NCBI GenBank assembly: GCA_963082975.1
Contig: OY720344.1
Location: forward strand, 71,886,546-71,950,545
Direction: 5' to 3'
DNA: 64,000 nucleotides
Source: Labia minor
Lineage: Eukaryota; Arthropoda; Insecta; Dermaptera; Spongiphoridae
The number at the start of each line of letters is the position of its first letter. Positions within the stretch are counted from its first letter, which is position 1. The position numbers and the translations under genes are program-made. The notes under the pieces were generated by a model. The model was not told the DNA's origin. It was given only the letters and a program-made list of their open reading frames with translations, and made no database searches. This document shows, piece by piece, positions 5,383 to 61,885 of this stretch.

Positions 5383-5384
5383 TT

Positions 5385-5465
5385 AAATATTATATTTGAA
5401 AATTCTCGTATACATATTTTTTTAAAGTTGAACAACTTGAATCAGTTCAATTTTATTATTATAAT
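5385..5465 (+). repeat. 81-bp direct repeat, left copy
   Basis: Nearly identical to 6228-6308. The pair brackets the Helentron-like element at 5471-6096 and about 130 bp to its right. Far longer than a transposon target duplication, so a local duplication is more likely. Confidence 0.75.
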
Positions 5466-5470
5466 ATATA

Positions 5471-6096
5471 TTTTTACCGACCGACGATAGTAAGGGAGGT
5501 ATTGTTTTCACACCAAATTTCACATGTGGAGATTTTTACATATCTCCACGAATCATGCATTTTCTAAACAGAAAAAAGTATTTTTAGCATGATGTCTGTC
5601 CGTCCGTCTGTCCGTCCGTATAGATGTGTACAGCCTGAACGGCTCAACCGATTTTGATGAAATTTGGTATATTTACTTAATGCATCAGTGGGATGAATTG
5701 ATCAACTTTTGGTGCAAATCCGTGAACCGGAAGTGGTAGTATTAGCGATCCTCGATAGGAAGGGAAGGGTTATTTTCACACTAAATTTCACATGAGGAGA
5801 TTTTTTTATATATCACCACGAATCATGCACTTTGCATTGGTTTTATCCTCGGGAAAATCATATTTATTAGTTTTTTCTTGATTTAAAATTATATTACGTC
5901 ATCCAGCAATTCATGACGTCACAGCCTGGTCTTACATATATATTATAAATAAAATAAAATTAAAAATATTTATGTTATATGCCTATATGTTTTTTATTAC
6001 ATTAATAGATATATTAAAATTATTTGAAATTGTTTCTGTAGCTGGAAATTAATTTACTTCAAACCGTCGGTCGGTTCGGACCTGGCCACAGGTCAA
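5471..6096 (+). mobile_element. Helentron-like miniature element, copy 1
   Basis: Begins TTTTTACCGACCGACGAT and ends with CGTCGGTCGGT, a short gap and the palindrome GACCTGGCCACAGGTC. The 11-bp ACCGACCGACG near the left end is exactly inverted near the right end, but the right side alone carries the extra hairpin. A GTCC/GTCT microsatellite lies in the left third (about 5590-5617). Subterminal inverted repeats, a microsatellite and a 3' hairpin form the layout described for DINE-1/HINE elements, non-autonomous partners of Helentron rolling-circle transposons. No protein is encoded. Sister copies: 8869-9500, 47469-48125 and a reversed fragment at 61344-61429. Edges may be off by a few bases because the flanks are T-rich. 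Confidence 0.7.
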
Positions 6097-6227
6097 ATTA
6101 TTTAATTTATAACCTTTATATAGTTATAGATATATACTTACAGTCAAATTTATAAAAAAAATGAACTTGTAATTGTTTTCTAAAAAAAGACTTTCGTTGA
6201 TTAACGATTTAAATTTAAAAAAGGGTT

Positions 6228-6308
6228 AAATATTATATTTGAAAATTCTCGTATACATATTTTTTCAAAGTTGAACAACTTGAATCAGTTCAATTTTATT
6301 ATTATAAT
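6228..6308 (+). repeat. 81-bp direct repeat, right copy
   Basis: Partner of 5385-5465, differing by about one base. It carries no coding potential and continues into unrelated AT-rich sequence on its right. Confidence 0.75.
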
Positions 6309-7788: not shown

Positions 7789-8001
7789 GTAAGTAAATTG
7801 TTATATATTTAACAATTAATTAATTCAATGAAATTAAATATTTTAATTAAAAATGATTCAATAAAATTAAAAAATAAATTAATTATAAACAAAGATTTAA
7901 GTTTTTTTTATAATTTCTTTTAGAAATTACTTATTTATTAATAAAAGATTAAGTAAATATTATTGTAATATATATATTATAAATTTACTTTTTTTTTGCA
8001 G

Positions 8002-8562
8002 GTGCCTAGCTTAAAAGATCTCTCAATGACAATGGTAAAAAATAACCTTTTTTTATATTTAGAATCTGATGCTCAGTTAAGCCAGAAAAAAGGAGTAATT
8101 AATAAATTAAAAAAAGTATTACCGTACAATTTGTATCAGAACCTCTTAGAAGTAATATTATTGACACCTCATCGTACCTTAAAAAAAGGCCTCCTTTATT
8201 GTATACATCCAAATTTAAAAGAATTCTATCTTCTCTATAATGTATATTTTGATAAATATTTATTTAAAGCCTTAAGAAAGTGTAAAAATTTAGAAGTACT
8301 AAATATTTCCTATATTAATAACAATCAAAATTATCTTCATCATTTTCTTATACTGTTAAAAGAATTGCCTAATTTACGCATTTTAGAATTAAGAAATGTT
8401 GTTATTACACTACGTATTTTTAAACTAATTTGTAAAATATGTACAAATCTGATAGAATTAGATATACAACATTGTACTATAAATTTATCAATTCAAGATA
8501 TGAAAAATCATGGGCATCCAAAATTATTAATCCTTCGTCATGGTTTGCCAATGTTTTTTTAA
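8002..8562 (+). CDS. Terminal coding exon of a leucine-rich-repeat-like protein
   Basis: Follows a strong acceptor (T-run, GCAG at 7998-8001) and is open for 186 codons to a TAA at 8560-8562. The frame extends only a few codons upstream and has no ATG, as expected for an internal exon start. The protein has three leucine-rich units of LxxLxL form: NLEVLNISYI, NLRILELRNVVI and NLIELDIQHCTI. Spacing is irregular, as in F-box/LRR-type proteins, where such repeats make a curved protein-binding surface. AATAAA at 8582-8587, 20 bases after the stop, is a plausible polyadenylation signal. With the two upstream exons the product would be about 243 residues. No orthologue is recognised; it could be a fast-evolving or lineage-specific gene, or a fragment of a larger one. 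The sequence is AT-rich like its surroundings, unlike the transposons. Confidence 0.6.
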   Translation: MPSLKDLSMTMVKNNLFLYLESDAQLSQKKGVINKLKKVLPYNLYQNLLEVILLTPHRTLKKGLLYCIHPNLKEFYLLYNVYFDKYLFKALRKCKNLEVLNISYINNNQNYLHHFLILLKELPNLRILELRNVVITLRIFKLICKICTNLIELDIQHCTINLSIQDMKNHGHPKLLILRHGLPMFF

Positions 8563-8868: not shown

Positions 8869-9500
8869 TTTTTACCGACCGACGATAATAAGGGAGGTAT
8901 TGTTTTCACACCAAATTTCACATGTGGAGATTTTTAGATATCTCCACGAATCATGCATTTTCTAAACAGAAAAAAGTATTTTTAGCATGATGTCTGTCCG
9001 TCTGTCCGTCTGTCCGTCCGTATAGATGTGTACAGCATGAACGGCTCAACCGATTTTGATGAAATTTGGTATATTTACTTAATGCATCAGTGGGATGAAT
9101 TGATCAACTTTTGGTGCAATTCCGGAAACCGGAAGTGGTAGTATTAGCGATCGACGATAGGAAGGAAAGGGTTATTTTCACACCAAAGGAGATTTTTTTA
9201 TATATCACCACGAATCATGCACTTTGTATTGGTTTTATCCTCGAGAAAAATCATATTTATTAGTTTTTTCTTGATTTAAAATTATATGACGTCATCCAGC
9301 CATTCATAACGTCACAGCCTGGTCTTGCATATATATTATAAATAAAATAAAATTAAAAATGTTTATATTTATTATTTATGTATCCATATCTGTTTTTTAT
9401 TACATTAATAGATATATTAAAAATATTTGAAATTGTTTCTGTACCTGGAAATTAATTTATTTCAAACCGTCGGTCGGTTCGGACCTGGCCACAGGTCAAC
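8869..9500 (+). mobile_element. Helentron-like miniature element, copy 2
   Basis: Full-length sister of 5471-6096, with the same ACCGACCGACG left subterminal repeat, inverted right counterpart and final GACCTGGCCACAGGTC hairpin. The microsatellite near 8995-9023 is longer than in copy 1. A short part near 9183 (the second 'caaatttcacatg' block) is deleted relative to copies 1 and 3. It lies about 300 bp after the stop of the LRR-like gene, in the same orientation as copy 1. Confidence 0.7.
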
Positions 9501-10050
9501 TTATTTATATAAATGTTATGTAGATTGATGTTTATAGGTAATTTTGTTTTAATACCATCATCAAAATTAATTTTAATATCCAATATATGTATATTTTGTC
9601 AACCATATGAGTAGCCCAGAATAAGCTCGTGTAATTAACATTTTTTTTCATAAACCTATTAAATTGGATTTAAGGATTTATATGATGGTAATTAGGGTGA
9701 TATCCAATGGTAATATGATATTTTTACTTTTATCTTTAGTGAAAATGAAATTATTGCAATTATGATAAAAAGATTTTAATAAGTATTTATTTTCGTTGTA
9801 TGGATCTAAAAATGTATTTCTTATAATTTTTAATATAATAGAAAATAATCACAAATATAATATTAAATATTTTTTTATAATTATATTTAATTATTATTAA
9901 TTATTCATTTTTATAATAATTGCTATTATTTTATAATAAATAAATTTAAAATAATCATATATTTCAATATTAAAATTAAAATTTGTATAAAAATTGTTTT
10001 CTTTAGTCTGAAGTGGGAAGGGGTTAAGTGAATTTGTTTTCCATTATATA
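9501..10050. other. AT-rich spacer
   Basis: No gene, repeat family or RNA recognised. Confidence 0.5.
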
Positions 10051-31563: not shown

Positions 31564-31876
31564 TGTTAAAGTAATTTTTATATTATTACCTGACATATGG
31601 TAAACTTGACAAAAAGGAAAAAGGGAGAAAATTTAATTTTTTTTTGTTTCTTTTTTTATGTTGGACTCCTTGTTTTTTTATGTTGATAATATAATAATTC
31701 ATGCTGTTAGAAATATATGTAAAACCTTTTTTTTTTAACTCTTATTAAAGTGAAGCATTTTGTTCTTGATATGTAATTGTGTTATTTTTTTATTGTCTAT
31801 ATTAATTGGCTAATATACTTGTTTGGACACATTGAAGAATTCATATTGATATTATATTATTACAATATATTTAACA
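31564..31876 (+). repeat. 5' LTR of a Ty1/copia retrotransposon
   Basis: 313 bp, beginning TGTTAAAG and ending TTTAACA, with the TG...CA boundaries of LTRs. Differs from the 3' LTR (36088-36399) only by one T in a homopolymer as far as I can read. Preceded by TATAC, repeated after the 3' LTR. Confidence 0.95.
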
Positions 31877-31893
31877 GGTTATGAGCCCAGGTC
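31877..31893 (+). promoter_or_regulatory. Primer binding site, half-tRNA type
   Basis: GGTTATGAGCCCAGGTC directly follows the 5' LTR. It is complementary to the anticodon arm of initiator methionine tRNA (the CAT anticodon pairs with ATG here) rather than to a tRNA 3' end. Drosophila copia is known to prime from such a 5' half of initiator tRNA. Confidence 0.75.
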
Positions 31894-32041
31894 GCCTCTG
31901 CTGCGTAGTAGCAACAGTAAGCTAAATTTAGAATAATTAAAAATTTGAATTAATAGAAAATTTGATTTTATATTTTTTTAAAAAAAAAAATAAAAAAAAA
32001 AATAAAATAATAATTTTTAAATTGATTATAGAAAATCAAAT

Positions 32042-34228
32042 ATGGAAAATCTAGCTAATCAAATAGAATTCTTGTGTGGAAAACAAAACTTTGATGATTG
32101 GAAATATTTAATCCAAATCAAATTAAGAGGAATACCTGGTGCTATTGACTCAATTCATGGTAAATTTAAAGCCCCTATTGAACCCAAGGAAGATGTTACA
32201 GAAGAAAAGCTAAAATTATATTCAAAAGAAGTAGAAAAGTTTAATAAAACTCAATCTGATGTAATGTTCTTATTAGTTTCTACATTGAATTCCAAAATTA
32301 GAAGTCAAATAAGAAATTTGAATCATCCTAATGAAGTTTGGACAGAACTACATAATTTGTTTTCAGGAGTCGAAGAGAACAAAGCATTTGATATTTGTTC
32401 AGAATTCTTCAAATATAAATGGAGAAATGAGTTAGATATGGCAGGAAATATGTCAGCTCTCAAACAATTATGGAATCAACTTCAAGAAGAAATAAATAAA
32501 AGAGATGAAGAAAATATTGGAAATCTTCCAACAATGTTTCTTATTTGCAAGGTATTTGAAATACTTCCAAAAGAATATGTTCATTTTCAAACAACATGGT
32601 TAATGACTCATAAGAAAAATGATAGAACAATTGAAAATCTTACAAATTGGCTTTGTACCGAAGCAAATAGATCAAATTCGATGTCTGAAGATCATCAAGA
32701 AGCTTTATTTCTTAAATCATCAAATGCTTCTGGTTCTAAGTCAAATCAAAGAACACATGATAGAACAGAAAAGCAAGACAACAAACAGAAATATCCTTGT
32801 CATTATTGTAAAAAAAAAGGTCATTGGCTTAATGAATGCAGAAAATGGATAGCAGATGGACGACCGAAGAAACATCAAAAGTTTAGACAAGATCAATCTA
32901 GAACTCCAAATAATGTTGAAGAAACAGTTTCTGTCATTATGACTGTAGATGACGTTTTCAACATAGAAGAAAATACTAATTCAGATGAATGGTACGTTGA
33001 CAATGGAGCAACTAGGCATGTTACTAACAACAGACATTTATTCAATACATACAGCAAATTTGAAAATTCTGTAATGATAATGTCAGCAAATGGACAAAAG
33101 ATAAAAGTCTTAGGACATGGCGATATAGAAGCTGAGTCTATTGTTGATGGAAAAACTACCAATTTGACTTTGAAAAATGTTTGGCATGTTCCTGATGTTA
33201 AGAAAAATCTATTTTCAATCTTACAAGTTCAAGATAAATATGCAAATAGTGAATTTATTTCAAAACAAAATGAATGTTGTCTAAAAATAAATGGTAAAAC
33301 TTATCTACAAGGATATCGTAAAGCTGAAGGAGGCTTATATAAATTAAGAATGACAACCATGATAAATGAAACAAATAAAATTAATTGTTTAGAAACAAAA
33401 GAAAGTTTACAATTATATCATGAAAGAATTGGTCATCAAGATAAAAGACATGCAAAGAAATTATTTGGAAATAATTTGAAATTTAAAACAAACGAAGAAA
33501 ACATATCTTGTATGGGGTGTATTAATGGAAAAATGCATCGACAAGTTTTCGGAACAAGACCAAGAGCAACTCAACCTGGAGAAATATTACATGCTGATGT
33601 ATGCGGACCCTTCGCAGTTAAATCTTTTTCAGGATTTAGGTATTTTGTTTGTTTTAAAGATGACTTCACAAGAATGAGAATTACATGCTTAATTAAAGAA
33701 AAATCTGAAGTAATTGAAGCAATTAAACAAATTCTAGAAGAAGCGAAGACCCAAGGCCACCCAATTAAAGAACTGCTAAGTGATAATGGAAAAGAATTCG
33801 ATAACAATCAAGTAAAGGCATTGTTAGCAAAATATGGATCAAGACATCGATTGACAACGCCTTATACTCCTCAGCAGAATGGATGCGCGGAAAGGGAAAA
33901 TCGTACCTTATTAGAATCTGCTAGATCTATGATGTATTCAAGAACAAAGTTTTCACAAGAATGCTGGGCAGAACTAATTAAAACAGCAACCTATCTTTTA
34001 AATAGAACTGGCAAATCATCAGTTGAAGGAAAGTCACCTTATGAACTCTGGTATGGAAAAAGTCCTAGAATTAAACATTTAAGAATAATTGGAACAGAAT
34101 GTAGTGCATGGATTCCTGATCAAAAGAGATCAAAATTAGAATCAAAAGCACAGTCTGGAATTCTTATTGGTTATAATGGAGATGATAGTTATAGAATATA
34201 TAATGCAGAAGGCAATTTTATTTTTTGA
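32042..34228 (+). CDS. Copia gag-protease-integrase, ending at a premature UGA
   Basis: 728 codons from the first ATG after the leader. Residues 1-240 are gag-like. A CCHC zinc knuckle (CHYCKKKGHWLNEC) lies near residue 252 and binds RNA. The aspartic protease motif WYVDNGATRHV is near 317 (DNGA instead of the usual D-S/T-GA). The integrase has an N-terminal HHCC finger (H.....H near 460, CMGC near 490) and a catalytic triad: Asp in HADVCGP near 518, Asp in LSDNGKEFDN near 581 and Glu in CAERENRT near 617. The frame stops at TGA 34226-34228 after GNFIF, then resumes in the same frame with SRDVIFQEEK, which normally follows without interruption. Apart from that codon the polyprotein looks complete. 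CGA to TGA by loss of a CpG is the simplest explanation; read-through is possible but unsupported. Confidence 0.93.
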   Translation: MENLANQIEFLCGKQNFDDWKYLIQIKLRGIPGAIDSIHGKFKAPIEPKEDVTEEKLKLYSKEVEKFNKTQSDVMFLLVSTLNSKIRSQIRNLNHPNEVWTELHNLFSGVEENKAFDICSEFFKYKWRNELDMAGNMSALKQLWNQLQEEINKRDEENIGNLPTMFLICKVFEILPKEYVHFQTTWLMTHKKNDRTIENLTNWLCTEANRSNSMSEDHQEALFLKSSNASGSKSNQRTHDRTEKQDNKQKYPCHYCKKKGHWLNECRKWIADGRPKKHQKFRQDQSRTPNNVEETVSVIMTVDDVFNIEENTNSDEWYVDNGATRHVTNNRHLFNTYSKFENSVMIMSANGQKIKVLGHGDIEAESIVDGKTTNLTLKNVWHVPDVKKNLFSILQVQDKYANSEFISKQNECCLKINGKTYLQGYRKAEGGLYKLRMTTMINETNKINCLETKESLQLYHERIGHQDKRHAKKLFGNNLKFKTNEENISCMGCINGKMHRQVFGTRPRATQPGEILHADVCGPFAVKSFSGFRYFVCFKDDFTRMRITCLIKEKSEVIEAIKQILEEAKTQGHPIKELLSDNGKEFDNNQVKALLAKYGSRHRLTTPYTPQQNGCAERENRTLLESARSMMYSRTKFSQECWAELIKTATYLLNRTGKSSVEGKSPYELWYGKSPRIKHLRIIGTECSAWIPDQKRSKLESKAQSGILIGYNGDDSYRIYNAEGNFIF

Positions 34229-36052
34229 AGCAGAGATGTTATATTTCAAGAAGAAAAATTAGCATTCTCAAGAACATTTTTAGAAAAAGGAATGTTAGAA
34301 CAAGAAATTAAGAATCAATCTGAAGATGAAATAGAGGAAAACTTGATTAAAGATGATTTTGGAGAATCAAGTGAAGATGAACAATTGCCGAGTGAAGATA
34401 AAGAATTATCTAATGATAATGAACAATCATTCTCAAATGAAAATAGAAATCTAAGAAATAGAAACACTATTCAAGTTCCATCAAAATATAAAGATTATGA
34501 ATTATATTCAATTCAAGAAGAAAATGATGAACCTAAGAATTTTGAAGAAGCTATGAAATCAAATGAAAAACAAAATTGGACTGAAGCAATGATTTCTGAG
34601 ATGGATTCATTAAAACAAAATCATACATGGGAATTAGTAAATTTACCAGCTGGAAATAGACCAATACAAAATAAATGGGTATACAAAATTAAAAAAGATT
34701 CAAGAGGAAATGTCAAAAGATTCAAGGCAAGACTAGTAGCAAAGGGTTATACTCAAAAGAAAGGAATAGACTATGAACAAACTTTTAGTCCAGTAACAAA
34801 CAGAAGTACAATAAGAACCTTGATAAGTGTGGCAGCTAGTGAAGGAATGCATTTAATGCAATTTGATGTCTCAACTGCATTTCTGTATGGAGAGTTAGAA
34901 GAAGAATTGTACATGTCACAACCAGAAGGTTTTGAAGACGGAACAAGAAGAGTCTGTAAGTTAAAAAGAAGTCTATATGGACTCAAACAAGCTCCAAGAT
35001 GTTGGAATAAAAGATTTGGAAAATTTCTGGATCAAGCAGAATTCATAAGAAGTGAAGCAGATCCATGTCTATTCTATAGAATAAGAGAAAATCAGAAGTT
35101 AATATTAGCCTTATATGTGGATGATGGTCTTATTGCATCTACTGATAAGACACAAATGACAGAATTTCTTAATGAATTAAAAGAAGAATTCAAAATAACT
35201 TATCATAAAGCAAATAATTTCTTAGGAATTGAAATTGATCACAGAGAAGATGGTTCAATTAAATTGTCCCAATCAAGATACCTTATAGAAATGTTAGACA
35301 AATATAATATGCAGGACTGTAATTCTGTAACAACTCCTATAATTAAAGATAATAATCAAAATTCCAATAATATAGAAATGAGGGAGAGCTTTCCTTACAG
35401 ATCAACAATTGGAGCTCTTCTCTATCTTTCTTCCGGAACTAGACCTGATATAGCTTTTGCAGTAAATTTATTAGCAAGAAAAGTTGAAAATCCAACTAAA
35501 GAAGATGTCATGAAATTGAAAAGAATATTTAGGTATCTGAAAGGAACACCTGAAAAGGGAATAGTTTATCAGGGAAATAGTCAACAAATTTGTCTTGAAG
35601 GATATAGTGATGCAGATTTAGCTGGAGATTCTAACACAGGAAGATCTACAACAGGAATAATTAGTATCTATGCAGGAGGAGCAATATCCTGGACAACTCA
35701 AAGGCAAACCTCAGTAGCAATTTCTACAACTGAAGCTGAAATCATGGCTGCCAGTGAGGCTGCAAAAGAATTAATCTGGCTTGATAGACTGCTAAAAGAA
35801 TTGACAACATTGAATGGACTTCCAGTATTATGGATTGATAATGAAGCAGCAGTAAAGCTTACAATGAATCCTGAATTCCATAAAAGGACAAAGCATATCC
35901 AAAGAAGACACTTCTTTGTTAGAGAATTGGTACAGCAAGGTCAACTAGAAGTAAAGAAAATTGATGGCAAGTATCAACTGGCTGATGGACTTACCAAACC
36001 TTTACCAAGAGAAAGGTGTGAAATGCTCAACACCAAGATTGGTTTAAAGTGA
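34229..36052 (+). CDS. Copia reverse transcriptase and RNase H (continuation of pol)
   Basis: In frame with the preceding ORF; the first internal ATG is at 34292, giving 586 codons. An acidic linker covers the first 90 residues. Reverse transcriptase follows: WVYKIKKDSRG and RFKARLVAKGYTQ (about 128-155), QFDVSTAFLYGELEEELYM with its catalytic Asp (about 190), and YVDDGLIA with the catalytic Asp pair (about 274). RNase H has YSDADLAGD, a TEAEIMAASEAAKELIWL block and IDNEAAV. The protein ends KPLPRERCEMLNTKIGLK, a typical copia end. No frameshifts or stops. As it stands it would need read-through of the UGA at 34226, or separate initiation, to be made. Confidence 0.93.
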   Translation, partial: SRDVIFQEEKLAFSRTFLEKGMLEQEIKNQSEDEIEENLIKDDFGESSEDEQLPSEDKELSNDNEQSFSNENRNLRNRNTIQVPSKYKDYELYSIQEENDEPKNFEEAMKSNEKQNWTEAMISEMDSLKQNHTWELVNLPAGNRPIQNKWVYKIKKDSRGNVKRFKARLVAKGYTQKKGIDYEQTFSPVTNRSTIRTLISVAASEGMHLMQFDVSTAFLYGELEEELYMSQPEGFEDGTRRVCKLKRSLYGLKQAPRCWNKRFGKFLDQAEFIRSEADPCLFYRIRENQKLILALYVDDGLIASTDKTQMTEFLNELKEEFKITYHKANNFLGIEIDHREDGSIKLSQSRYLIEMLDKYNMQDCNSVTTPIIKDNNQNSNNIEMRESFPYRSTIGALLYLSSGTRPDIAFAVNLLARKVENPTKEDVMKLKRIFRYLKGTPEKGIVYQGNSQQICLEGYSDADLAGDSNTGRSTTGIISIYAGGAISWTTQRQTSVAISTTEAEIMAASEAAKELIWLDRLLKELTTLNGLPVLWIDNEAAVKLTMNPEFHKRTKHIQRRHFFVRELVQQGQLEVKKIDGKYQLADGLTKPLPRERCEMLNTKIGLK

Positions 36053-36078
36053 ATTTTTTTTTAAGAATGTCAGGTAAT

Positions 36079-36087
36079 AAGGGAGAG
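36079..36087 (+). promoter_or_regulatory. Polypurine tract of the copia element
   Basis: AAGGGAGAG abuts the 3' LTR. This is where plus-strand DNA synthesis is expected to start in LTR retrotransposons. Confidence 0.75.
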
Positions 36088-36399
36088 TGTTAAAGTAATT
36101 TTTATATTATTACCTGACATATGGTAAACTTGACAAAAAGGAAAAAGGGAGAAAATTTAATTTTTTTTTGTTTCTTTTTTTATGTTGGACTCCTTGTTTT
36201 TTTATGTTGATAATATAATAATTCATGCTGTTAGAAATATATGTAAAACCTTTTTTTTTAACTCTTATTAAAGTGAAGCATTTTGTTCTTGATATGTAAT
36301 TGTGTTATTTTTTTATTGTCTATATTAATTGGCTAATATACTTGTTTGGACACATTGAAGAATTCATATTGATATTATATTATTACAATATATTTAACA
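36088..36399 (+). repeat. 3' LTR of the copia element
   Basis: 312 bp, identical to the 5' LTR by eye except for nine instead of ten T in one run near 36250. Followed by TATAC (36400-36404), matching 31559-31563: a 5-bp target duplication, as expected for copia integrase. Confidence 0.95.
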
Positions 36400-39790: not shown

Positions 39791-39930
39791 ACATGCACTG
39801 GTTTAATAAATATTATTTATTAATTTTAATTTATAATTTATAATTAATTAAATTTAATTTAAATATAATATATTATGTTATTTAATCCAATTCAAATTGC
39901 GAGATAGTCGAGTGGAGACACTCCAGCTAA
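39791..39930 (+). repeat. Copy 2 of the 140-bp hairpin-ended repeat
   Basis: Begins ACATGCACTGGTTTAATAAA and ends with GAGTGGAGACACTCCAGCTAA. Nearly identical along its length to 58664-58803. AT run on the left, T-rich on the right. Might be the 3' terminal part of a Helitron-type element (hairpin then CTAA); no helicase or 5' end is visible. Confidence 0.65.
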
Positions 39931-39931
39931 T

Positions 39932-42060
39932 TTTCTTAATTTAAAATATAAATTTTAATAATAAAAAAATGGCGCCGGGTAAAGCCGATCAGAGCTTTAT
40001 TAAATACAAAATATTATAAATAAAATAAAATTAATGATCTTTATTTTAATAATATTTTGTAATCAATTTAAGAATTTGATATTATGTTCTATCCACAGAC
40101 CATACTTGTCTTTCTTTCAGTGCATGAATACGAACGTTTATGAGCTGTATCTTTTATGACTATTTTTTTTAATTTATGTTCTTTTAAATTATTTGAAATT
40201 ATTTCATATATTTTGTCGTTTATTTATTTTAAATAATAATCTTAATCTTAAATATTCATAGTTCATAAGGAATAATTTTATTAAAGTACCGAGAGGCGGC
40301 TCGGTGAACCAGGTACGATGAATTTAAATGTGATAAAATATAAAAACAAGATTCAATTGATTCTATTTAATTTTTAATAAAATAAAAATTTTAATCCATG
40401 TTCACGCACCAATTTTCAAATATCAATAATATGAATGCTATTTAAAAATAAAAATACAAATTGTAAATATATTAATCTACCTATGTTTTTATTTTTTTAT
40501 ATAAATAGTTAAAATTTAAATATAAAATATATAATCTGAAACAAATAAAAGTAACTATAAGAATATTTTATATTTTAAGATATTTTATTAATTACTCATC
40601 ACACAATATTAAAAGAACCTCTACCATAAATTAAATCCAAAATTGTACTTATTCTATATTTATTGTTGTTATATGCTTTTAAAAACAAAACATAAATTTG
40701 CAGTTGGTATTAATTAGAAATTTGTGAATTGTTTAAGACGTGGTGTAAACATTTCGGTCTATATGACTTGGATGTCATAATTTTTGAAAGTGTTGTGAGA
40801 TTTAAAGTTGGCTGTGTTGTGCGTAGCAGGTGCAAAAAGGGTGGGCCGCGTGAGTTCCTACAGGAAAAGGGAAAAAGGAAACCTCGAATGAGTTATGTAT
40901 GTTCAAGCAATAACTCAGAAAAAATAGAGCATAGACTTACACACCTCGCCATTTATATTGTATAAGGCATAACTTGTGTATAAGCTTGAAGGGCGAGGAC
41001 AAAAAAAAGCTCAAGCGAGCGCTCATACAAATAGAACATGGTTGCTGAGGGTGTTTAATTTTAAATAGCCTAATGATTTACTGATTCTATTTACATAGGA
41101 ATTAAATCAAGTCGTTTAAGCGAGAGTAGATATGGAATATATTAACATATTCGAAGAAAAGGGATCGTTTTTTGTTTTTATTGCTGACGAAAATAAAATA
41201 AGAAAAGGATTGAAATAGATTCAAAATTGTTTTTTATCAAAAAATTTATATTGTAAGAATTTTAATAATTAATATTAAAAAATTGAAATAATTTGTAAAA
41301 ATTTCTATAACCGAATGAAGGGTATAAGCTTCTTTAACATGATAAAATAGAAAATTTTTTAACAGTTGACAACTATTAATATAATATAAGTACATTTTGA
41401 ACAATTTGATCATTATAGCTGGAATTCATTAAAATTTAAAAACTTAATTGGAATGATGTGCCAAAAACATCCTATCATATTTTTATAAAAATTTTCCAAA
41501 TAGAAGATAAAATTTACGAAAATGAGCTAGCTTATTAATGAGGTATCATTATTTGAAACAAATAAATTAGTAAGGAAAGGGTTAAATCTTGAGCAGCAGC
41601 AAATAGAGAATACAATAAAGAAACAATCAATAGAAATTATTTTAACGTAGATTTGTATTTCAGAAATTCAAATAGAATATATTATTTTAGTTAATTCTAA
41701 ACTGCACACACAAAATTATTATTTAATATTCAATTTAATTATTATTATCATTATTATCTAATCTTAATAGGGTAGGTTCAATAATTTTTAATCTTGACTT
41801 CAAATTTTCCTTGGTATATATTAAAATTTTTTTTTTTTGCCTTGTCTCATATTATAAAAATTCAAATTATTATAATCATTAAAATTTTTATTAATTTAGT
41901 TTTTTTTAGATTTTATTTATTATATATTTTAATTGATAAAAGATTTTCTATATAAATAAATAAATTTAAAAATAAATATCAATTTCATAATTTATTATTA
42001 CTAATAATAATAATAGCCTTTATTAGTTCTTAAATATACAGAATCATATTAAATAGTAAT
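39932..42060. other. Mostly AT-rich; unidentified GC-richer island at about 40700-41060
   Basis: A patch near 39970-40010 and another near 40285-40320 (GAGAGGCGGCTCGG) are GC-richer but unidentified. The island 40700-41060 holds a 78-codon frame (40729-40965, no normal ATG start) with no known motif, and a GCGAGCGCTC palindrome near 41018. It could be a worn transposon or a conserved non-coding region; I cannot tell. Confidence 0.35.
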
Positions 42061-47468: not shown

Positions 47469-48125
47469 TTTTTACCGACCGACGATAGTAAGGGAGGTAT
47501 TGTTTTCACACCAAATTTCACATGTGGAGATTTTTACATATCTCCACGAATCATGCATTTTCTTAACAGAAAAAAGTATTTTTAGCATGATGTCTGTCCG
47601 TCCGTCTGTCCGTCTGTCCGTCTGTGCGTCCGTATAGATGTGTACAGCCTGAACGGCTTAACGGATTTTGATGAAATTTGGTATATTTACTTAATGCATC
47701 AGTGGGATGAATTGATCAACTTTTGGTGCAAATCCGGAAACCGGAAGTGGTAGTATTAGCGATCGACGATAAGAAGGGAAGGGTTATTTTCGCACCAAAT
47801 TTCACATAAGGAGATTTTTTTACATATCACCACGAATGTATTGGTTTTATCCTCGGGAAAAATCATCTTCATTATGTTTTTCTTAATTTAAAATTATATG
47901 ACGTCACCCAGCCCTTCATGACGTCACAGCCTCGGGTAACGCCGGCAACGCCGGCTACTTCAGCTATATATTATAAATAAAATAAAATTAAAAATATTTA
48001 TGTTATATCCATATCTGTTTTTTATTACATTAATAGATATATTAAAATTATTTGAAATTGTTTCTGTAGCTGGAAATTAATTTATTTCAAACCGTCGGTC
48101 GGTTCGGACCTGGCCACAGGTCAAC
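47469..48125 (+). mobile_element. Helentron-like miniature element, copy 3, inside LINE-B
   Basis: Full-length copy with both ACCGACCGACG subterminal repeats, the final hairpin GACCTGGCCACAGGTC, and the longest GTCC/GTCT microsatellite of the family (about 47594-47633). It cuts LINE-B between residues read as SIVKENK and NNEINIEHI. TTATT occurs on both sides (47463-47467 and 48126-48130), but because other copies also end ...CAACTTATT this may be element sequence rather than a duplication. An extra GCCGGCAACGCCGGC block near 47941 is absent from the other copies. Confidence 0.72.
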
Positions 48126-48535
48126 TTATTTTCTTTTACGATTGATATCACCTTATCCTCCAGTTCGCCAGGATGTTCCTCGTCTTCATCCAACCCATGT
48201 AATGTAATGTTTTTTGATTTATTTTCATGTTCCATTTTCCTCATTCTTTGTTCAAGTCGAGTAGTCTTTTTTCAAATGTTTTGAATTTTTGTTCTACGAA
48301 AGAGAATAACTTAGTTTCAAGATGTTCGTTATTCTTTTTTATTGTATTTTTTATATCATCCTTCCACTCTCGTAAGAAATTCAATAATCCGGTTCTTTCC
48401 ATTATTTTCCCCAAAATATTATATAAATGAGTCTCCTACCTGACAAAGTGAGAATGATAAGCAGATGCCCACTATAAGTTTCGGCAGCTCTCTCGAAATG
48501 CGTCCGTTCAGCTTGGACTCTCGCACTCGACCAAT
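48126..48535 (-). pseudogene. LINE-B 5' end: coiled-coil start and leader
   Basis: The minus strand from about 48400 reads MERTGLLNFLREWKDDIKNT, a coiled-coil-like ELETK..FVEQKFKTFEKRL region, and after a frame change MRKMEHENKSKNITLHGLDE. This resembles the start of L1-like ORF1 sequences. The region 48440-48535 probably is the 5' leader, GC-richer than the AT-rich flank at 48540. Confidence 0.6.
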
Positions 48536-53476: not shown

Positions 53477-56458
53477 CTAGTTGTTATCATTAGCTCTTTT
53501 TCTTTCTATGTAACGCAAGTCTGTAAGAACTTGTGTTGCAAATATGCTGATTGCGTTCCAGGCAGCCTCTGATGACAACATTGCTTCCACTATAGACTCT
53601 GGATAGATTCCTGTGTTTATAGATTTCTCTACATCATCTCGCTGTTGAGAAAAACGTATACACTCAAAGAAAACGTGTTCCGCATTTTCTATAACTCCTG
53701 GACAGGACGGACACTCTGGAGAATCGTCATGCTTGAAACGGTGAAGATACTCACGAAAACAGCCGTGCCCTGACAACATCTGTGTTAGGTAATAGTTGAC
53801 CTCGCCGTGACTCCGGTTCAGCCAAACATCAATCCTTGGTATTAGACGGTGCGTCCATCTACCCTTTTCCGCGGCATCCCACTGTAACTGCCATCGTGAA
53901 ATACTATGTCGCCGTTCTTCTGCTTTCAGTTCTTCGGTGCTCATTATGTTTGACCTCTTCCGATGGTAGAGGTTCCGTCTTTCTTCAGCCAGAACTCTAA
54001 GTGGCAGAGTTCCTGAAATGACACACACCGCTTCCTCTGATATTGTTCGGAAGGCGCTGGCCACTCTTAACGCGCTTAACCGATATACCGGACCAGCTCT
54101 TCTCCGCGATTCCTGGATCTCAAGTGCGTCAGCCCAAATGGATATACCATACGTGAGGACCGATGTAACCACTGATGATAGCAATAACCTCCTCGTGTGC
54201 TTTGGGCCTCCGATGTTAGGCATAAGTCGTGATAGGCTAGCTACTACTGCTGATGCTTTAGCACTCACGTGTTCCACCTGCTGCTTAAACTTGAGCCGAG
54301 CATCAAGCATCACTCCCAAATATCGGATATAAGGTTGTGATGTGATCTCTTGTAGGCCGACTTTCAGTTTGATGGTCTCTATCACTTTCCTGCTTGTAAT
54401 AAGTACAGCCTCCGTTTTCTGTTTAGCCAGTTGAAGGTTCGCTGTATTCATCCACCGGTTAACTTGCTCGAAGGTGGTATCGAACATGTGGTTGATCTCA
54501 TCAAGGTGTTTGGCGACCACTACCACGGCTACATCATCCGCATATGCTACGAGTTTAACACTCCTTGGCAGATTCAGTCTCAACAACCCGTCATACATGA
54601 TATTCCAGAGAAGTGGACCCAGTACAGAACCTTGTGGTACTCCTCCAGTAACATCATACTCCTTTGCACCGTTCTTCGTGTCGTATTTCAGGACTCTATT
54701 TGTAAAGTAGCTAGCCACTATCCTTCGCAGGTATCCTGGTACGTTCTTCTCTTCGAGGGCCTGCATGATGCAATCCCAGTTGGCGGAGTTGAAGGCATTT
54801 TTGATGTCTAACGTTGCCACCAGACAATATTTCTTCGTTCCACCCTTCCATCTGGTACCAGAAATTGCGTCCTTGGCCGTACTGACAACCAGATCGATCG
54901 CGTCCAGAGTTGATCGACCCCTTCGAAAGCCATACTGATTGTCCGCCAGAAGTGGGTCAACAATTGCTTCGATTCTCTGATGGATAATGCGCTCAAATAT
55001 CTTACCCGCCGTGTCCAGCATGCAAAGTGGACGGTAGGATGACGGTTCTTCCGGTGGCTTTTTTTTCCCTTTTGGAAGTAGTACCAGCCGTTGTTGTTTC
55101 CATTTCCTTGGAAAAGTCCCCTCCTTAAGGCAGGTGTTGTAGACGTCAAGGAACAATATTGGCTCTGCCTTTATAGATGTTTTTAAGGCAATATTAGGGA
55201 TTCCGTCCAATCCCGGCGCTTTATTATTCCCGACGCGGTTGCATGCCTCCATCAGTTCGTCTTCTGTGATAGGTGGAATGTCATCCAGCTCGTCCCGAGC
55301 CAACAGGTAGTTGAAAACGCGTTGTTGTGGGAACAGCGCAGTCACGATCTTTCCCAACAGTCGAGGACAAGTTGGTGACGGCATTGGCTGGTATTTTAGG
55401 TGCGTCATGACTACCCTGTAAGGTCTGCCCCACAAGTCTCTGTCCACCTCATTGATGAGATCTTTCCAGCAGTTCTTCTTGCTATCCTTGATGGCTTTGT
55501 TTAAGCATCGACGAGCTTGTTTGTACTCTGCGACTAGCTCCGCCGAGTTAGGTCGCCGATAACCACGCTGAGATATTCTCCTTTTCTTGAGACATTCCTT
55601 ACGGAGGGCGCTGATATGATCGCTCCACCAATAAACCGAGGATCCCCAATTCATGCAACGTTTACGGGGCATGCAAACGTCACAAGCCCGGGCCACTCTC
55701 TTCATCAGGTCCTTGGTCATTTCTTCTGCGGATCCAGCTATGATCGGTTCACTATTTAAGGCAGTTACTAATACACATGGGTCAAAAGATTTCACCTTCC
55801 ATCCGATGGTGTTAACTTTCCTGGTTGTTCTTCTAGAATTCTGGCCGTTGGGCATCTCCCAGAGAATCGCATTGTGGTCACTGGCTGTGTAAATATCCAT
55901 CACCCTCCATTTGTAGTTACCTCGGGCGAGGCTGCTGCTGACAAAGGTGAGATCCACAATAGAACTTGCGTCGCCCTTGGTGTAAGTTGGCGTGTTGCCA
56001 CTGTTGAGCAGAACCACATCCAGTGCAGTAAAGGCTTCCAGGAGTGCTCTTCCTCGTGCGTTGGTGTGCCTGCTTCCCCAGTCCACTGCCCAGGAGTTGA
56101 AGTCTCCGGCTATTGCCACTGGATGGTGTTGCTTCGCGTCCTCGGACAGCCGATCCAAGAAGTCACTAAATTCAACAATAGAGAGGCCGGGTGGAGCGTA
56201 GCAGCTGTAAAAACGAATGCCATTCACCGACGCCGCCACAAAGCCGGCGCTGCCATTGCTAACGACACTCCCGAAGGGAATCCTGCCACAGGACCATATG
56301 ACAGCTTTGGTGGTGCTATCAGTCTCCCATGGTTGACCGCTTAGGTGCTTATACGGTTCTGATAAAAGCACAAGGTCAAGCTTTAGCTCTCGTACCGTCT
56401 GCATGAGCAAATGATGTGCAGCCTCGCAGTGGTTGATGTTTATCTGCAGTATTCTCAT
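53477..56458 (-). CDS. R1-clade ORF2: endonuclease and reverse transcriptase
   Basis: 993 codons, starting at the ATG that overlaps the ORF1 stop. An APE-type endonuclease occupies about residues 1-205: LQININHCEAA at the start, SEPY (32-36), AGDFNSWAVDWGSR with catalytic residues (117-130), SIVDLTF (166-172) and SDHNAILW (193-200). RT follows: NNKAPGLDGIP (411-421), ATLDIKNAFNSANW with the first catalytic Asp (548-561), GGVPQGSVLGPLLWN (605-619) and AYADDVAVVV with the Asp pair (638-647). Near 914-933 is a C..C....H....C-type zinc finger (CPSC...HVFFEC), characteristic of the R1 group. The enzyme nicks the target and primes reverse transcription there. No disabling change seen; length fits the family. 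Confidence 0.96.
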   Translation of the reverse strand: MRILQININHCEAAHHLLMQTVRELKLDLVLLSEPYKHLSGQPWETDSTTKAVIWSCGRIPFGSVVSNGSAGFVAASVNGIRFYSCYAPPGLSIVEFSDFLDRLSEDAKQHHPVAIAGDFNSWAVDWGSRHTNARGRALLEAFTALDVVLLNSGNTPTYTKGDASSIVDLTFVSSSLARGNYKWRVMDIYTASDHNAILWEMPNGQNSRRTTRKVNTIGWKVKSFDPCVLVTALNSEPIIAGSAEEMTKDLMKRVARACDVCMPRKRCMNWGSSVYWWSDHISALRKECLKKRRISQRGYRRPNSAELVAEYKQARRCLNKAIKDSKKNCWKDLINEVDRDLWGRPYRVVMTHLKYQPMPSPTCPRLLGKIVTALFPQQRVFNYLLARDELDDIPPITEDELMEACNRVGNNKAPGLDGIPNIALKTSIKAEPILFLDVYNTCLKEGTFPRKWKQQRLVLLPKGKKKPPEEPSSYRPLCMLDTAGKIFERIIHQRIEAIVDPLLADNQYGFRRGRSTLDAIDLVVSTAKDAISGTRWKGGTKKYCLVATLDIKNAFNSANWDCIMQALEEKNVPGYLRRIVASYFTNRVLKYDTKNGAKEYDVTGGVPQGSVLGPLLWNIMYDGLLRLNLPRSVKLVAYADDVAVVVVAKHLDEINHMFDTTFEQVNRWMNTANLQLAKQKTEAVLITSRKVIETIKLKVGLQEITSQPYIRYLGVMLDARLKFKQQVEHVSAKASAVVASLSRLMPNIGGPKHTRRLLLSSVVTSVLTYGISIWADALEIQESRRRAGPVYRLSALRVASAFRTISEEAVCVISGTLPLRVLAEERRNLYHRKRSNIMSTEELKAEERRHSISRWQLQWDAAEKGRWTHRLIPRIDVWLNRSHGEVNYYLTQMLSGHGCFREYLHRFKHDDSPECPSCPGVIENAEHVFFECIRFSQQRDDVEKSINTGIYPESIVEAMLSSEAAWNAISIFATQVLTDLRYIERKRANDNN

Positions 56459-57897
56459 TTCCGTCTAATGGTCATCTTCTTGAGTGCTTCTTGGTATACC
56501 GGGCATCTACTTGTGCCGGCATAGTGAGCAATATCCTCTGTGCCGAGCTGTTCAGCACACAATGCACATTTAGCTGGTTTATCGCAATTGACCAACTTGT
56601 GACCCTCCTCTCCACACTTGATGCAGAGTTTGGATCGGTCTTTTCCGCCTTTACACTGGGCAGCCCGGTGTCCAAAATGCCAGCATTTGAAACATCGGAT
56701 TGGCTTTATTATCGTTCGAATTCGACAGTTTACCCAGCCAATCCTGATCTTGCCGTGTTCTCCGATCACTTTCGTCGCTGTTGCTGCCGCCAATACCACC
56801 GACGCAATTTGTGTTCCTCTAAAGGCTTTTCGGATTTTTATAGCCTCTACTGTGACACCACAATCGCCTCCGGCTGCCATTTTCAGAGCATCCAGAATAT
56901 CGTCTCTTGTTGTGATATCGTCGAGGTCACGAATTTCCAGGTTTTCTTCTGGTCCCGTATTGATGACTTTTGCATCATCTTGGAGTATGCCCGCGATGGT
57001 TTCCTGCAAGGCTTTTCCATTGTCAGCACTGCCTTTTAACAGCGTAATAAGCATGTCTCCTGCTGCTGTCTTGCGAATTTTGTCGACAGTGGCGCTGACC
57101 TGCTCCGGGCGCACGCCTGCCTTGATCCGGGTGAGTATTTCGCAGTACTTTGTTTTGTCTGTCGGGCGAATGATCAGCACGTCAGGTCTCATTGCTGCTC
57201 TTTTTGGGTTCTTCTGGTTCCGCTTAAATGGAGGCGCTGGAGGTTTATCTGGAGGCTGTTTTTTGCGCTCCTTTCTCCTATCCCCTCTCGATTGCACCAT
57301 CACCCAGCCTGGACTCTTGTTCTGCTTAACGGAGTTTTGAATAGGCTCTTTATCCTCTACATGCTTCTTGGTAGGAAGGCTAGGTCCCGAGTCCTTCAGC
57401 TTCTTTGTCGTCTGTTGATTCGAGCTACCAGGAGAATTAGTTTTCCTTTTTTCTCCCCTTACAGTAAGGGCTTCTTGAGCTGCAGATTCCTTAAAAACCA
57501 GACACTTGTTTGTTTTGTCTGGGGATGTTTGTGTGCTCCTTTTCTCTGTAGTAGGGCGTGACTGAGATCGTGGTATCTTTTCTTCTATATCCTTCAACCG
57601 GCCGTACATGCTTCTGATTGAGCGTGCCATTTTCTTTATCTCACCATGTACGTTATGCCTAGGCTCAACAAACTCCAACAGTTCGAAAATTTTCTTCCCG
57701 AGGTCTCCAAGAACCTCCTTTCTCTCCTCTTCACTTGTAGCAATAAATGCTACAGGGGCCAAGTTTTCCACCCCTGCAGCACTGCGGTCGCCAGCTAACG
57801 ACATCCCGGGGCCCGCTTGCTCACCCCTGACGGACGCCGGCACTGGGCATCCGAATCCCTGCGCCGTAACCTCTCCTTCCCTTTCGTCGTCTCTCAT
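56455..57897 (-). CDS. R1-clade ORF1: gag-like nucleic-acid-binding protein
   Basis: 480 codons. The N-terminal half is charged and low in structure (Lys/Pro/Ser-rich, about 120-240). A middle domain of about 150 residues begins near RPDVLIIRPTDKTKYCEILT, a segment conserved in ORF1 proteins of R1/SART/TRAS-like elements. Three zinc knuckles follow at the C-terminus: CFKCWHFGHRAAQC, CIKCGEEGHKLVNC and CALC...H....RC. The protein is expected to coat element RNA and carry it to the target. The final TGA shares bases with the ORF2 ATG (ATGA at 56458-56455 on the coding strand), suggesting translation by termination and re-initiation. The start is the first in-frame ATG after the leader. Confidence 0.94.
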   Translation of the reverse strand: MRDDEREGEVTAQGFGCPVPASVRGEQAGPGMSLAGDRSAAGVENLAPVAFIATSEEERKEVLGDLGKKIFELLEFVEPRHNVHGEIKKMARSIRSMYGRLKDIEEKIPRSQSRPTTEKRSTQTSPDKTNKCLVFKESAAQEALTVRGEKRKTNSPGSSNQQTTKKLKDSGPSLPTKKHVEDKEPIQNSVKQNKSPGWVMVQSRGDRRKERKKQPPDKPPAPPFKRNQKNPKRAAMRPDVLIIRPTDKTKYCEILTRIKAGVRPEQVSATVDKIRKTAAGDMLITLLKGSADNGKALQETIAGILQDDAKVINTGPEENLEIRDLDDITTRDDILDALKMAAGGDCGVTVEAIKIRKAFRGTQIASVVLAAATATKVIGEHGKIRIGWVNCRIRTIIKPIRCFKCWHFGHRAAQCKGGKDRSKLCIKCGEEGHKLVNCDKPAKCALCAEQLGTEDIAHYAGTSRCPVYQEALKKMTIRRK

Positions 57898-58253
57898 GTT
57901 TGGTTTATCTTCGGGGTTCCTTCCCCTAGCGCATTGGCATCGGTGACTATGCTTTTACGAGGGGTGGAGCTCGAACCACCACCTCAACCCCCATCCTTGG
58001 AGGGCCGATGGGTGGGTGTTTGCACTTATTTGATGGCGGTGCATACTCGCCATGTCTAGAATCCGTCATAGGCATTTGTGGTATTTTCTAGAGCCTAACT
58101 TTTACCCGAAAATTAGGCCCGCCACAGCCTGATGGAGCCTATCGCCTCGGTCCGGCACTGCTTATTCAGTATTCGCAGCTGGCCTACATATCTGCAGGTC
58201 GTTCCCCTATCCGCCACCTGGGGACCCGCCCGGTAGCTGAGGCCCGCCCCGGG
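57898..58253 (-). promoter_or_regulatory. 5' untranslated region of the R1-clade element
   Basis: GC-rich leader with no long open frame, running from the target junction to the ORF1 ATG. R1-clade elements usually carry transcription signals here; none can be pinpointed by eye. Confidence 0.55.
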
Positions 58254-58663: not shown

Positions 58664-58803
58664 ACATGCGCTGGTTTAATAAATATTATTTATTAATTTT
58701 AATTTATTATTTATAATTAATTAAATTTAATTTAAATATAATATATTATGTTATTTAATCCAATTCAAATTGCGAGATAATCGAGTGGAGACACTCCAGC
58801 TAA
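58664..58803 (+). repeat. Copy 3 of the 140-bp hairpin-ended repeat
   Basis: Nearly identical to 39791-39930, again ending GAGACACTCCAGCTAA before T-rich DNA. The sequence on its left differs from copy 2, so 140 bp is the shared unit, or this copy extends farther left than copy 2. Confidence 0.65.
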
Positions 58804-59925
58804 TTTAAATTTGAGAAATTACGATTTTAATAATAAATACTATAACAAAAAGGATCTATTGAACGTTATCACTTTAGCACTACTGATAAAAAGACTTGGC
58901 CTCAAAAATCTATTCTCTCTTGTCTCTTCCATTCCATTCCTTTCCCCTTTCAAATACTTTATTTTGTTTTTTCCGATACTGTTTTTAAAGTGCAGTTTTT
59001 TATCTCCTTTGTGCTACATCTTAAACGGTCGATTTTATATTTCATTATACAACCCACTTTTTCATTTGTTCAAAAATTTAATTTAATTTTATAAATTATT
59101 ATAAAACAAAAAATTATTTTCCTAGGTTTCTTTAAATATATTTAAACTAATTTTGTATTTTTTAAATTTATCTTACTAATACCTATCAATATATTATCTT
59201 ATCAATAATCTTATTAAAATACAAAAAATATAATCAATAATAATAATTAATCAAGTTTTATATTATTAAATGATAGTTTGTTTTGGTGTCACATAAAATG
59301 AGTCAAAATTTGTTTTAAAGTAAATATATTTAATAATATTTAGAATTATTTAATAGTATTCAATTAATTAATTTAAAGAATTTTTTAACTAAATTTAAAA
59401 CCTTATTTGATTTAATTTTTCAATGTATACCTACACATATTTGTAATTTCATTTGGCTAGTATTATACTGATTACATTTTTACAATCCTTTTTCCAAATT
59501 AAATGTAATGAATACACATAACTTCATCTTCAATTCAGCAGAGTGGAAGAAGAGAGTGCCTATTATCGTAGAAAATAGGGTTTGAGGGTAGAAAGAAAAA
59601 GACATTTAGTAGTGATGATCGGCAATCCATCGCAGCTTGACGCCCTGATGAGTTTTCCAGTCGAGTTGTAAATTGGGCTAGAACCTAGAACGCATAAGAA
59701 TTTCTCTAAATCAAGGGGAAATTCTGCATTACATTTGAACGAAACATGAAAGACACTTCTCTAATTTCAAACCCTGCAACTAAACAATTTCTTAAAAAAT
59801 AAAATAATAAAATAATATAAAAATAGTATTTTAGATTCTTTAAAATTAATTTTTTAATTTAATTATTTATCTCTTTCAATTCCAAGACAATAAATACATC
59901 ATATAAATATAATATATTATGAGAT
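58804..59925. other. AT-rich spacer
   Basis: A frame at 58811-59086 is hydrophobic and low-complexity, with no support. A GC-richer patch near 59530-59750 is unidentified. Confidence 0.4.
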
Positions 59926-60642: not shown

Positions 60643-61340
60643 TATAAATCAAGAGGAGAAGATAAATAATATTAATAATAATAATTCATATTTAATTGTT
60701 AGAATAAAAACATATAACATATCAAATAATATTTTTAAAAAATTATGTGTATATTGTTTAATTAAAATACGAACCTTATACTAATTACTTTTTTGAAATT
60801 TAAACAAACATCAACCGAAAAATTCTACTGAACTTGAAAGTTCCAATTACTTTAGGATAGTATTTTTAAATCCAATAAAATAATTTTTTTTTTAATGTCA
60901 AATATACTAATCAGGTTCGGTGTCTATATATTTTACAATTAGCTAACAAAATATATTTGAAAATAGCAATGTTAAAATATTGAAATTAAAATATATTATA
61001 TTTTATTTATTATTATTATCATATTAATTTAAAATTCAATTTTAAATTTGAAATTAATTTTCAAATAAATTATAATATGATATGAATGTTTTATTTTTTT
61101 TTTTTTTATGAAGTAAAATTCTCTTCCATAAATACTTAAAATGTTAATATCAAAACAATGATTATATTTTTTAATTCTAAAGATTGACTTATTTATTATT
61201 TTCAAGTATATGTTGTAATTATATATTTTTAAAATAGGTGATATTAAACCAGATAAAATTTTTAATTTAAAAGTTTTATATTTAATCTTATTTTCATTGT
61301 TATAAAAAATAGAAACAATTTCATTTATTAAAAATATAAA
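60643..61340. other. AT-rich spacer
   Basis: No gene or repeat recognised. Confidence 0.5.
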
Positions 61341-61343
61341 TAA

Positions 61344-61429
61344 GTTGACCTGTGGCCAGGTCCGAACCGACCGACGGTTTGAAATAAATTAATTTCCAGC
61401 TACAGAAACAATTTCAAATAATTTTAATC
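61344..61429 (-). repeat. Helentron-like element, 3'-end fragment (copy 4)
   Basis: Reverse orientation: begins GTTGACCTGTGGCCAGGTC, then the ACCGACCGACG repeat and about 60 bp matching the right end of copies 1-3. Similarity fades into a diverged block after 61430. Shows that the hairpin end is a discrete, recurrent terminus. Confidence 0.75.
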
Positions 61430-61885
61430 TATATATTTAATACGATAGTGTCCGTCTGTACGCAAAAAACTCCAGAGCCTAAACTACAAGGAGTAAGGTA
61501 ACCAAATTTTTCTGAGGTGAAGGGTACCTCAAATGATGAAAAATAAAAAAGAAATTAGAATCTTAGGTAACTCCTGAGCTGAGCTGCGGGTGTTCCATTT
61601 TCCAGAAATATATATAAAGGAGAGTTTGTATGAATGTAATTTGTTTACTTTTTTGCTGTCATAGAAACAGATATATATATATATATATAATTAGAACCCC
61701 TCTCTCTCTCCCTCTATTTAAAATTTTAAAAAATGGAGTGTTCTAGCCAAATTAAGAAATTTAAATTCCTTATGCAACATTGATAGGTAAATGAATTGGA
61801 CTGGAAGAGGAGACATATGATTAGAGAAATTGGGGAAAAATCAACCGAAATGTAATTAAACAAAAAAATTCAAGAATTATGATAC
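61430..61885. other. Unclassified, with a worn repeat near 61448-61550
   Basis: GTCCGTCTGTACGCAAAAAA and following bases resemble the interior of common arthropod interspersed repeats. An (AT)n run lies near 61672-61690. No gene. Confidence 0.35.

Follow-up and report, generated by a model that had tools for sequence, protein, structure and literature searches.

What kind of mobile element occupies positions 8869 to 9506 of this stretch, and what does it do to the sites at which it lands? In the window, meaning the whole 64,000-nt stretch analyzed here, the first-pass annotation had listed three full copies (starting at 5471, 8869, and 47469) and one reversed end fragment, and had read them as non-autonomous Helentrons with the DINE-1/HINE layout. 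The inventory was borne out: copies A, B, and C are 94–96% identical (588–597 aligned columns, microsatellite excluded), and fragment D corresponds to 97–100 nt of the right end, reversed. The copies and the parts of the element are as follows.

5471..6103, plus strand: copy A, full element (sequence, alignment)
8869..9506, plus strand: copy B, full non-autonomous element, with terminal Ts assignable to element or host alike
47469..48132, plus strand: copy C, full element in the coding frame of a minus-strand LINE
61338..61437, minus strand: fragment D, reversed, right end only
8874..8884, plus strand: left subterminal repeat of copy B, ACCGACCGACG (motif scan)
8924..8947, plus strand: 5′ hairpin of copy B, GTGGAGAT...ATCTCCAC (folding done on copy A)
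8992..9021, plus strand: (GTCY)n microsatellite of copy B
9141..9228, plus strand: internal second 5′ end of copy B, about 75% identical
9468..9478, minus strand: right subterminal repeat of copy B, inverse of ACCGACCGACG (motif scan)
9482..9497, plus strand: right-end hairpin of copy B, GACCTG-GCCA-CAGGTC, a candidate replication terminator
5739..5833, plus strand: internal second 5′ end of copy A, 82.6% identical
47753..47840, plus strand: internal second 5′ end of copy C, about 83% identical, end approximate

The left end of the family reads TTTTT ACCGACCGACG, with the subterminal repeat 5 nt in from the left end, and the right end reads CGTCGGTCGGT TCG GACCTGGCCACAGGTC AACTTA TTT (AAATTA in copy A), with the inverse repeat approximately 25–29 nt from the element's right end. 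ACCGACCGACG had been described as lying near the left end with its exact inverse near the right; its seven matches in the window fall in these places and orientations, a count that was reached in none of 100 shuffles (mean 0). The microsatellite of GTCC/GTCT units also stands, as (GTCY)n in all three full copies of the window, and its length ranges from 12 to 40 nt among 11 full copies compared (mean pairwise identity 95.6% over 55 pairs, range 92.1–98.4%). The palindrome said to be confined to the right end calls for a distinction. GACCTGGCCACAGGTC itself, searched in the window with up to three mismatches, gave four matches, all exact and all at right ends (4/4; 0.03 expected), but the left end has a hairpin of its own, GTGGAGAT/ATCTCCAC, about 54 nt in, which 8 of the 11 full copies carry exactly. 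The right subterminal inverted repeat (subTIR) also folds on itself (AACCG-TCGGT-CGGTT). In folding, three right ends exceed shuffled sequence (z −2.9 to −3.1), while the 5′ region does so only weakly (z −1.6). Beside the 5′ subTIR, the inverted repeat is at best TACC/GGTA, 4 bp with an imperfect fold.

Copies A–C are non-coding, with no stop-free stretch longer than 61 codons, and the whole window gave no Rfam match at gathering scores. The AT-rich part of copy A (approximately nt 371–566) resembles repeats at other genome loci, a likeness that ends near nt 566, at GTTTC. Copy A is bracketed by an 83-nt direct repeat (5383–5465 and 6226–6308, 98.8%) that stops a few bases short of the left end, and at 47933–47955 copy C has a GC-rich insertion, CGGGTAACGCCGGCAACGCCGGC, that is missing in copies A and B. 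Past fragment D, at 61437–61560, the sequence is different and holds a short GTCCGTCTGT motif inverted relative to D. Fragment D was also considered as the 3′ terminus of a longer autonomous partner, and this was dropped: compared with the RepHel genes fetched from the genome, its neighbor sequence matched nothing inside the genes, only repeats outside them.

This layout was compared with three described systems. The HINE of mite, mosquito, and Drosophila, in the sections of PMC4067079 that treat them, likewise have subterminal repeats that lie close to the 5′ end and farther inside at the 3′ end, a 3′ palindrome, a T-tract target with no non-T target modification, variable terminal Ts, and no coding capacity. 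The present family differs from that account in its own subTIR and hairpin sequences, in a right subTIR at 25–29 nt rather than the 38–60 nt of the mite elements, and in the internal second 5′ end. Drosophila DINE-1, as characterized in PMC2374699, shares the GTCY microsatellite in the left block, the subTIRs, the 3′ stem-loop, and the TT target, including the same ambiguity of two Ts between element and duplication. The same paper gives DINE-1 a 13-nt subTIR (11 nt here), a partial inverted repeat next to the 5′ subTIR (not clearly present here), and central tandem repeats (none found in the window copies). Among Drosophila, DINE-1 elements have a conserved core of about 90 bp in common; the likeness noted here is one of layout. 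For Cg_HINE of Crassostrea gigas, PMC7492417 describes GTCY/GTCC/GTCK microsatellites, subTIRs of 11–12 nt, a 3′ palindrome, and a T-rich target, as here, and a partner that their authors likewise did not link; the oyster elements have satellite-like arrays, unlike the window copies.

The family is abundant. The source genome searched comprises 604,477,936 bases in 71 contigs, and in these 604 Mb the right-end hairpin has 18,582 exact matches, against none for the backwards control. A left end lies within 1.5 kb of 11 of 13 exact hairpins in the fetched loci, a non-random sample. By our own arithmetic the family makes up roughly 2% of the genome, provided that most copies are full length. With it, a large AT-rich genome gains a HINE family of high copy number. 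Exact family patterns had no match in viral contigs, nor had an exact family pattern in prokaryote genome contigs, both scans possibly excluding the source-genome records. A literature text search with the family's sequence motifs matched one short motif and returned no transposon paper by title.

Inside the element lies a second copy of its own beginning. In copy A, nt 272–363 duplicate nt 4–93 at 82.6% (E about 1e-22), the duplicated unit being the 5′ 92 nt. Copies B and C contain the internal end as well, at 75% and 83%, and it is present in all 11 full copies compared; its folding is not notable (z −0.8), and its alignment extends through a decayed subterminal repeat up to the T-run. Since the internal duplicate (75–83%) is more diverged than the copies are among themselves (mean 95.6%), the duplication is older than the amplification. 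Tandem Helitrons whose inner copies are truncated at the 3′ end (described in PMC7492417) and arrays arising from bypassed termination (treated in PMC4067079) offer a precedent. On these grounds we infer, as the best reading, that the internal 5′ end is the fossil of two tandem copies, the upstream of which lost its 3′ end, later amplified as a unit.

The nature of the target site is revealed by copies that landed in other copies. At locus L001, a family copy is inserted in another in the opposite orientation. All 11 full copies compared, as well as two partial ones, have six Ts (T6) in the host tract inside the element, and the left-junction pattern at this T6 site has 414 exact genome matches (control 0), representing antisense copies in other copies. 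Among 100 listed of these 414 sites, sorted by hand, the left junction has 5 Ts in 62, 6 Ts in 32, 7 Ts in two, and 4 Ts in one, with three variants. Thirteen right-side stretches were chosen from the 100 listed sites to span 4, 5, 6, and 7 Ts, and six of them gave pairs; the others (L082, L083, L085, L088, L091, L092, and L094) contained no right junction and stand outside the eight pairs available in all. The left/right T counts are 5/3 in L001, L087, and L089; 6/2 in C1:725863 with L070, and in L084, L086, and L090; and 7/2 in L093. Seven of the eight pairs thus sum to 8, that is, 6 + 2, and one sums to 9, and in seven of the eight no change other than the two-T gain is found beside the junction. 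The 5/3 and 6/2 splits show that the insertion point shifts within the T tract, the total being the host Ts plus two. The family lands inside T runs, and the evidence for this is unusually clear. With 18,582 exact hairpins and no fewer than 414 nested insertions, the family makes an unusually good natural data set on the unsettled target behavior of Helentrons, as a single known empty host site yields hundreds of junctions.

Outside the nested pairs, the left T run of the 11 full copies is exactly 5 in eight, 6 in one, and TTATT in two, and the right runs of 20 further copies (L070 included) are 2 Ts in five, 3 in six, 4 in five, 7 in one, and 8 in three. Copy C and the eight left runs of five had hinted that the element brings in all five left Ts, in place of three host bases, an idea that we rejected because the nested junctions split 5/3 and 6/2. 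The two Ts gained may either be carried by the element or arise as a TT duplication, and both readings fit. Yang and Barbash, in the section of PMC2374699 on ten polymorphic DINE-1 sites, met the same two-T ambiguity, and Thomas et al. describe T-rich targets, no modification, and variable Ts in section 6 of PMC4067079.

Copy C provides a second kind of empty site. It splits an apparently ORF1-like coding frame of a minus-strand LINE, and the flanking frames read ELEDKVISIVK and NEINIEHINIIKRIG. Its flanks, joined with an arbitrary four Ts into a 404-nt query, gave 33 genome matches, two of them the window's own halves, and 20 cover the full 404 nt. Thirteen paralog junctions were read (12 of the 20 full-length matches and one partial), and 11 have ATTATTGG-T6-CTTT and two are variants; many of these LINE paralogs have like scores and are not independent of one another. 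The junction of copy C, ATTATTG-T5-(element)-T4-CTTT, is two bases longer than the paralogs and has its second G replaced by T. Given that the 11 exact paralogs carry GG (GG-T6-C) where copy C has GT, the rule of two added Ts requires one G-to-T substitution here, which is its weak point.

Insertion between T and T without duplication, as anticipated in the first-pass annotation, is therefore upheld as regards the T tract and the lack of any non-T duplication, but the two net Ts may be a TT duplication. Clear (non-T) target duplications, which the annotation had named, together with a cut-and-paste transposase partner with the same ends, as the finding that would speak against it, were absent from the nested sites and LINE paralogs examined. 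The two-T gain at T tracts equals what a cut-and-paste MITE would leave, if it had subterminal inverted repeats, a DDE transposase, and a 2-bp TT target duplication, and DINE-1 was formerly classed in this way, as recounted in PMC2374699. We nevertheless consider such a MITE improbable here. The element has no terminal inverted repeat, the outer left TTTTTACC and the reversed right AAATAAGTTGACC being mismatched; its inverted repeats are asymmetric, and the extra length at the right end contains the hairpin; and insertions fall at different Ts of the tract, some 5/3 and others 6/2. Landing in T runs at a variable T, with two Ts gained, is the DINE-1/HINE pattern and argues against cut-and-paste movement by terminal inverted repeats.

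The number of nested copies raises a separate question. With T tracts counted in the window and the fetched loci, and all tracts treated as equal, a naive expectation for one T6 site in every copy is about 108–122 nested copies in all (tracts of at least 6) or 46–52 (tracts of at least 5); the 414 exact matches exceed this several-fold. The estimate is rough, and some copies may not be independent of one another, so the excess is treated as a lead only. The family might use its own body as a landing pad, its T6 tract being hit far above other T tracts in varied T registers and building nested composites, with the fixed tandem 5′ ends a relic of the same self-association; we hold this to be rather unlikely. 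That the 414 copies reflect the amplification of one or a few composite elements instead of repeated landing is a serious possibility, if short of probable, and it would account for a count above the naive 46–122. Against it, the junctions fall into no fewer than two classes, 5T and 6T, whose right sides match, and the host sequence next to the junction occurs in several variants (CTGTTAAG, CTGTTTAG, CTGTTATG, and CTGTAAAG). The question concerns the nesting alone.

A non-autonomous family of this kind calls for a RepHel protein, and the first-pass annotation had proposed a search for one carrying the same subterminal repeats. Pfam Helitron_like_N has 104 matches in the source genome and none in 14 control genomes; none falls in the window, whose open frames of 100 aa or more number 29. 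We examined 10 of the 104 matches, with about 20 kb at each locus. RGSPH, diagnostic of Helentrons according to section 7 of PMC4067079, occurs in five of the 10 genes, two of them near-identical, and RGLPH, diagnostic of Helitrons in that section, occurs in five, one of these motifs being read in locus L022 outside the frame read as J35. DUF6570 and PIF1 matches are present in all five RGSPH genes. Helentron-type RepHel genes are thus present in the genome, but both family ends flank none of the 10 loci, either in an exact search or with mismatches allowed (left up to 4, right up to 2). Among the 10, the following gene is the one with a family left end upstream.

L047:5395-10000 and L048:1-1937, minus strand: Helentron-type gene, 2181 aa, with DUF6570, Rep (RGSPH), and PIF1 helicase

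Its C-terminus has weak matches to Exo_endo_phos_2 (E 3.2e-4, below the Pfam cut-off) and to a Ulp1 protease (E 0.004); the C-termini of three other Helentron-type genes had no endonuclease match, leaving one of four tested weakly positive. The first 528 nt of the element lie upstream of this gene, with the left end at the border of a local duplication, and no family right end was found within 5.4 kb downstream. For want of a right end, and because of where the left end lies in relation to that duplication, we rejected this gene as an unproven autonomous partner; its left end is probably a chance neighbor.

Helitron-type RepHel frames of 1651–1652 aa are intact and have identical scores at L015–L018, L020, and L021 (L019 and L023 are similar), which, judged from the frames, would fit recent activity. 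Their presence, together with a 3′ hairpin near the end such as is common to Helitrons, could suggest that the family derives from a canonical Helitron and is moved by an RGLPH-class RepHel of the same genome. We find this highly improbable. The canonical definition, as set out in a part of PMC4067079, requires 5′ TC, 3′ CTRR, and an A-T target; the ends here are not of this form and the target is T-T, and both family ends were found at none of the five RGLPH-type loci among the 10 examined.

Structure, target behavior, and the Helentron-type RepHel genes of the genome together lead us to conclude that the elements very probably constitute a single family of HINE/DINE-1-like non-autonomous Helentrons, new in itself but of a known kind. 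The original assignment is thereby supported by most features of the layout and by the empty sites. For such an element, a RepHel supplied in trans, presumably of the Helentron kind, would nick the T-rich 5′ end; one strand would be peeled off, probably from left to right, until the putative terminator at the right-end hairpin stops it; and the released strand would be inserted between the Ts of a T tract.

The window also holds other features. A Copia-type LTR retrotransposon spans 31564–36399, and its repeats are almost identical (172 nt at 100% and 155 nt at 99%). In a LINE at 53477–57954, a 995-aa open frame encodes endonuclease and reverse transcriptase domains, and a second frame, of 499 aa, has no Pfam match and shows zinc-knuckle-like motifs by eye. 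The open frame at 7969–8562, 0.3 kb upstream of copy B, has a below-cut-off match (PF24758) to the leucine-rich repeats of F-box proteins. Finally, the repeat pair at 39791–39934 and 58664–58807 (143 nt, 98% alike), with a short palindrome-like GGAGACACTCC, is possibly another small mobile element.
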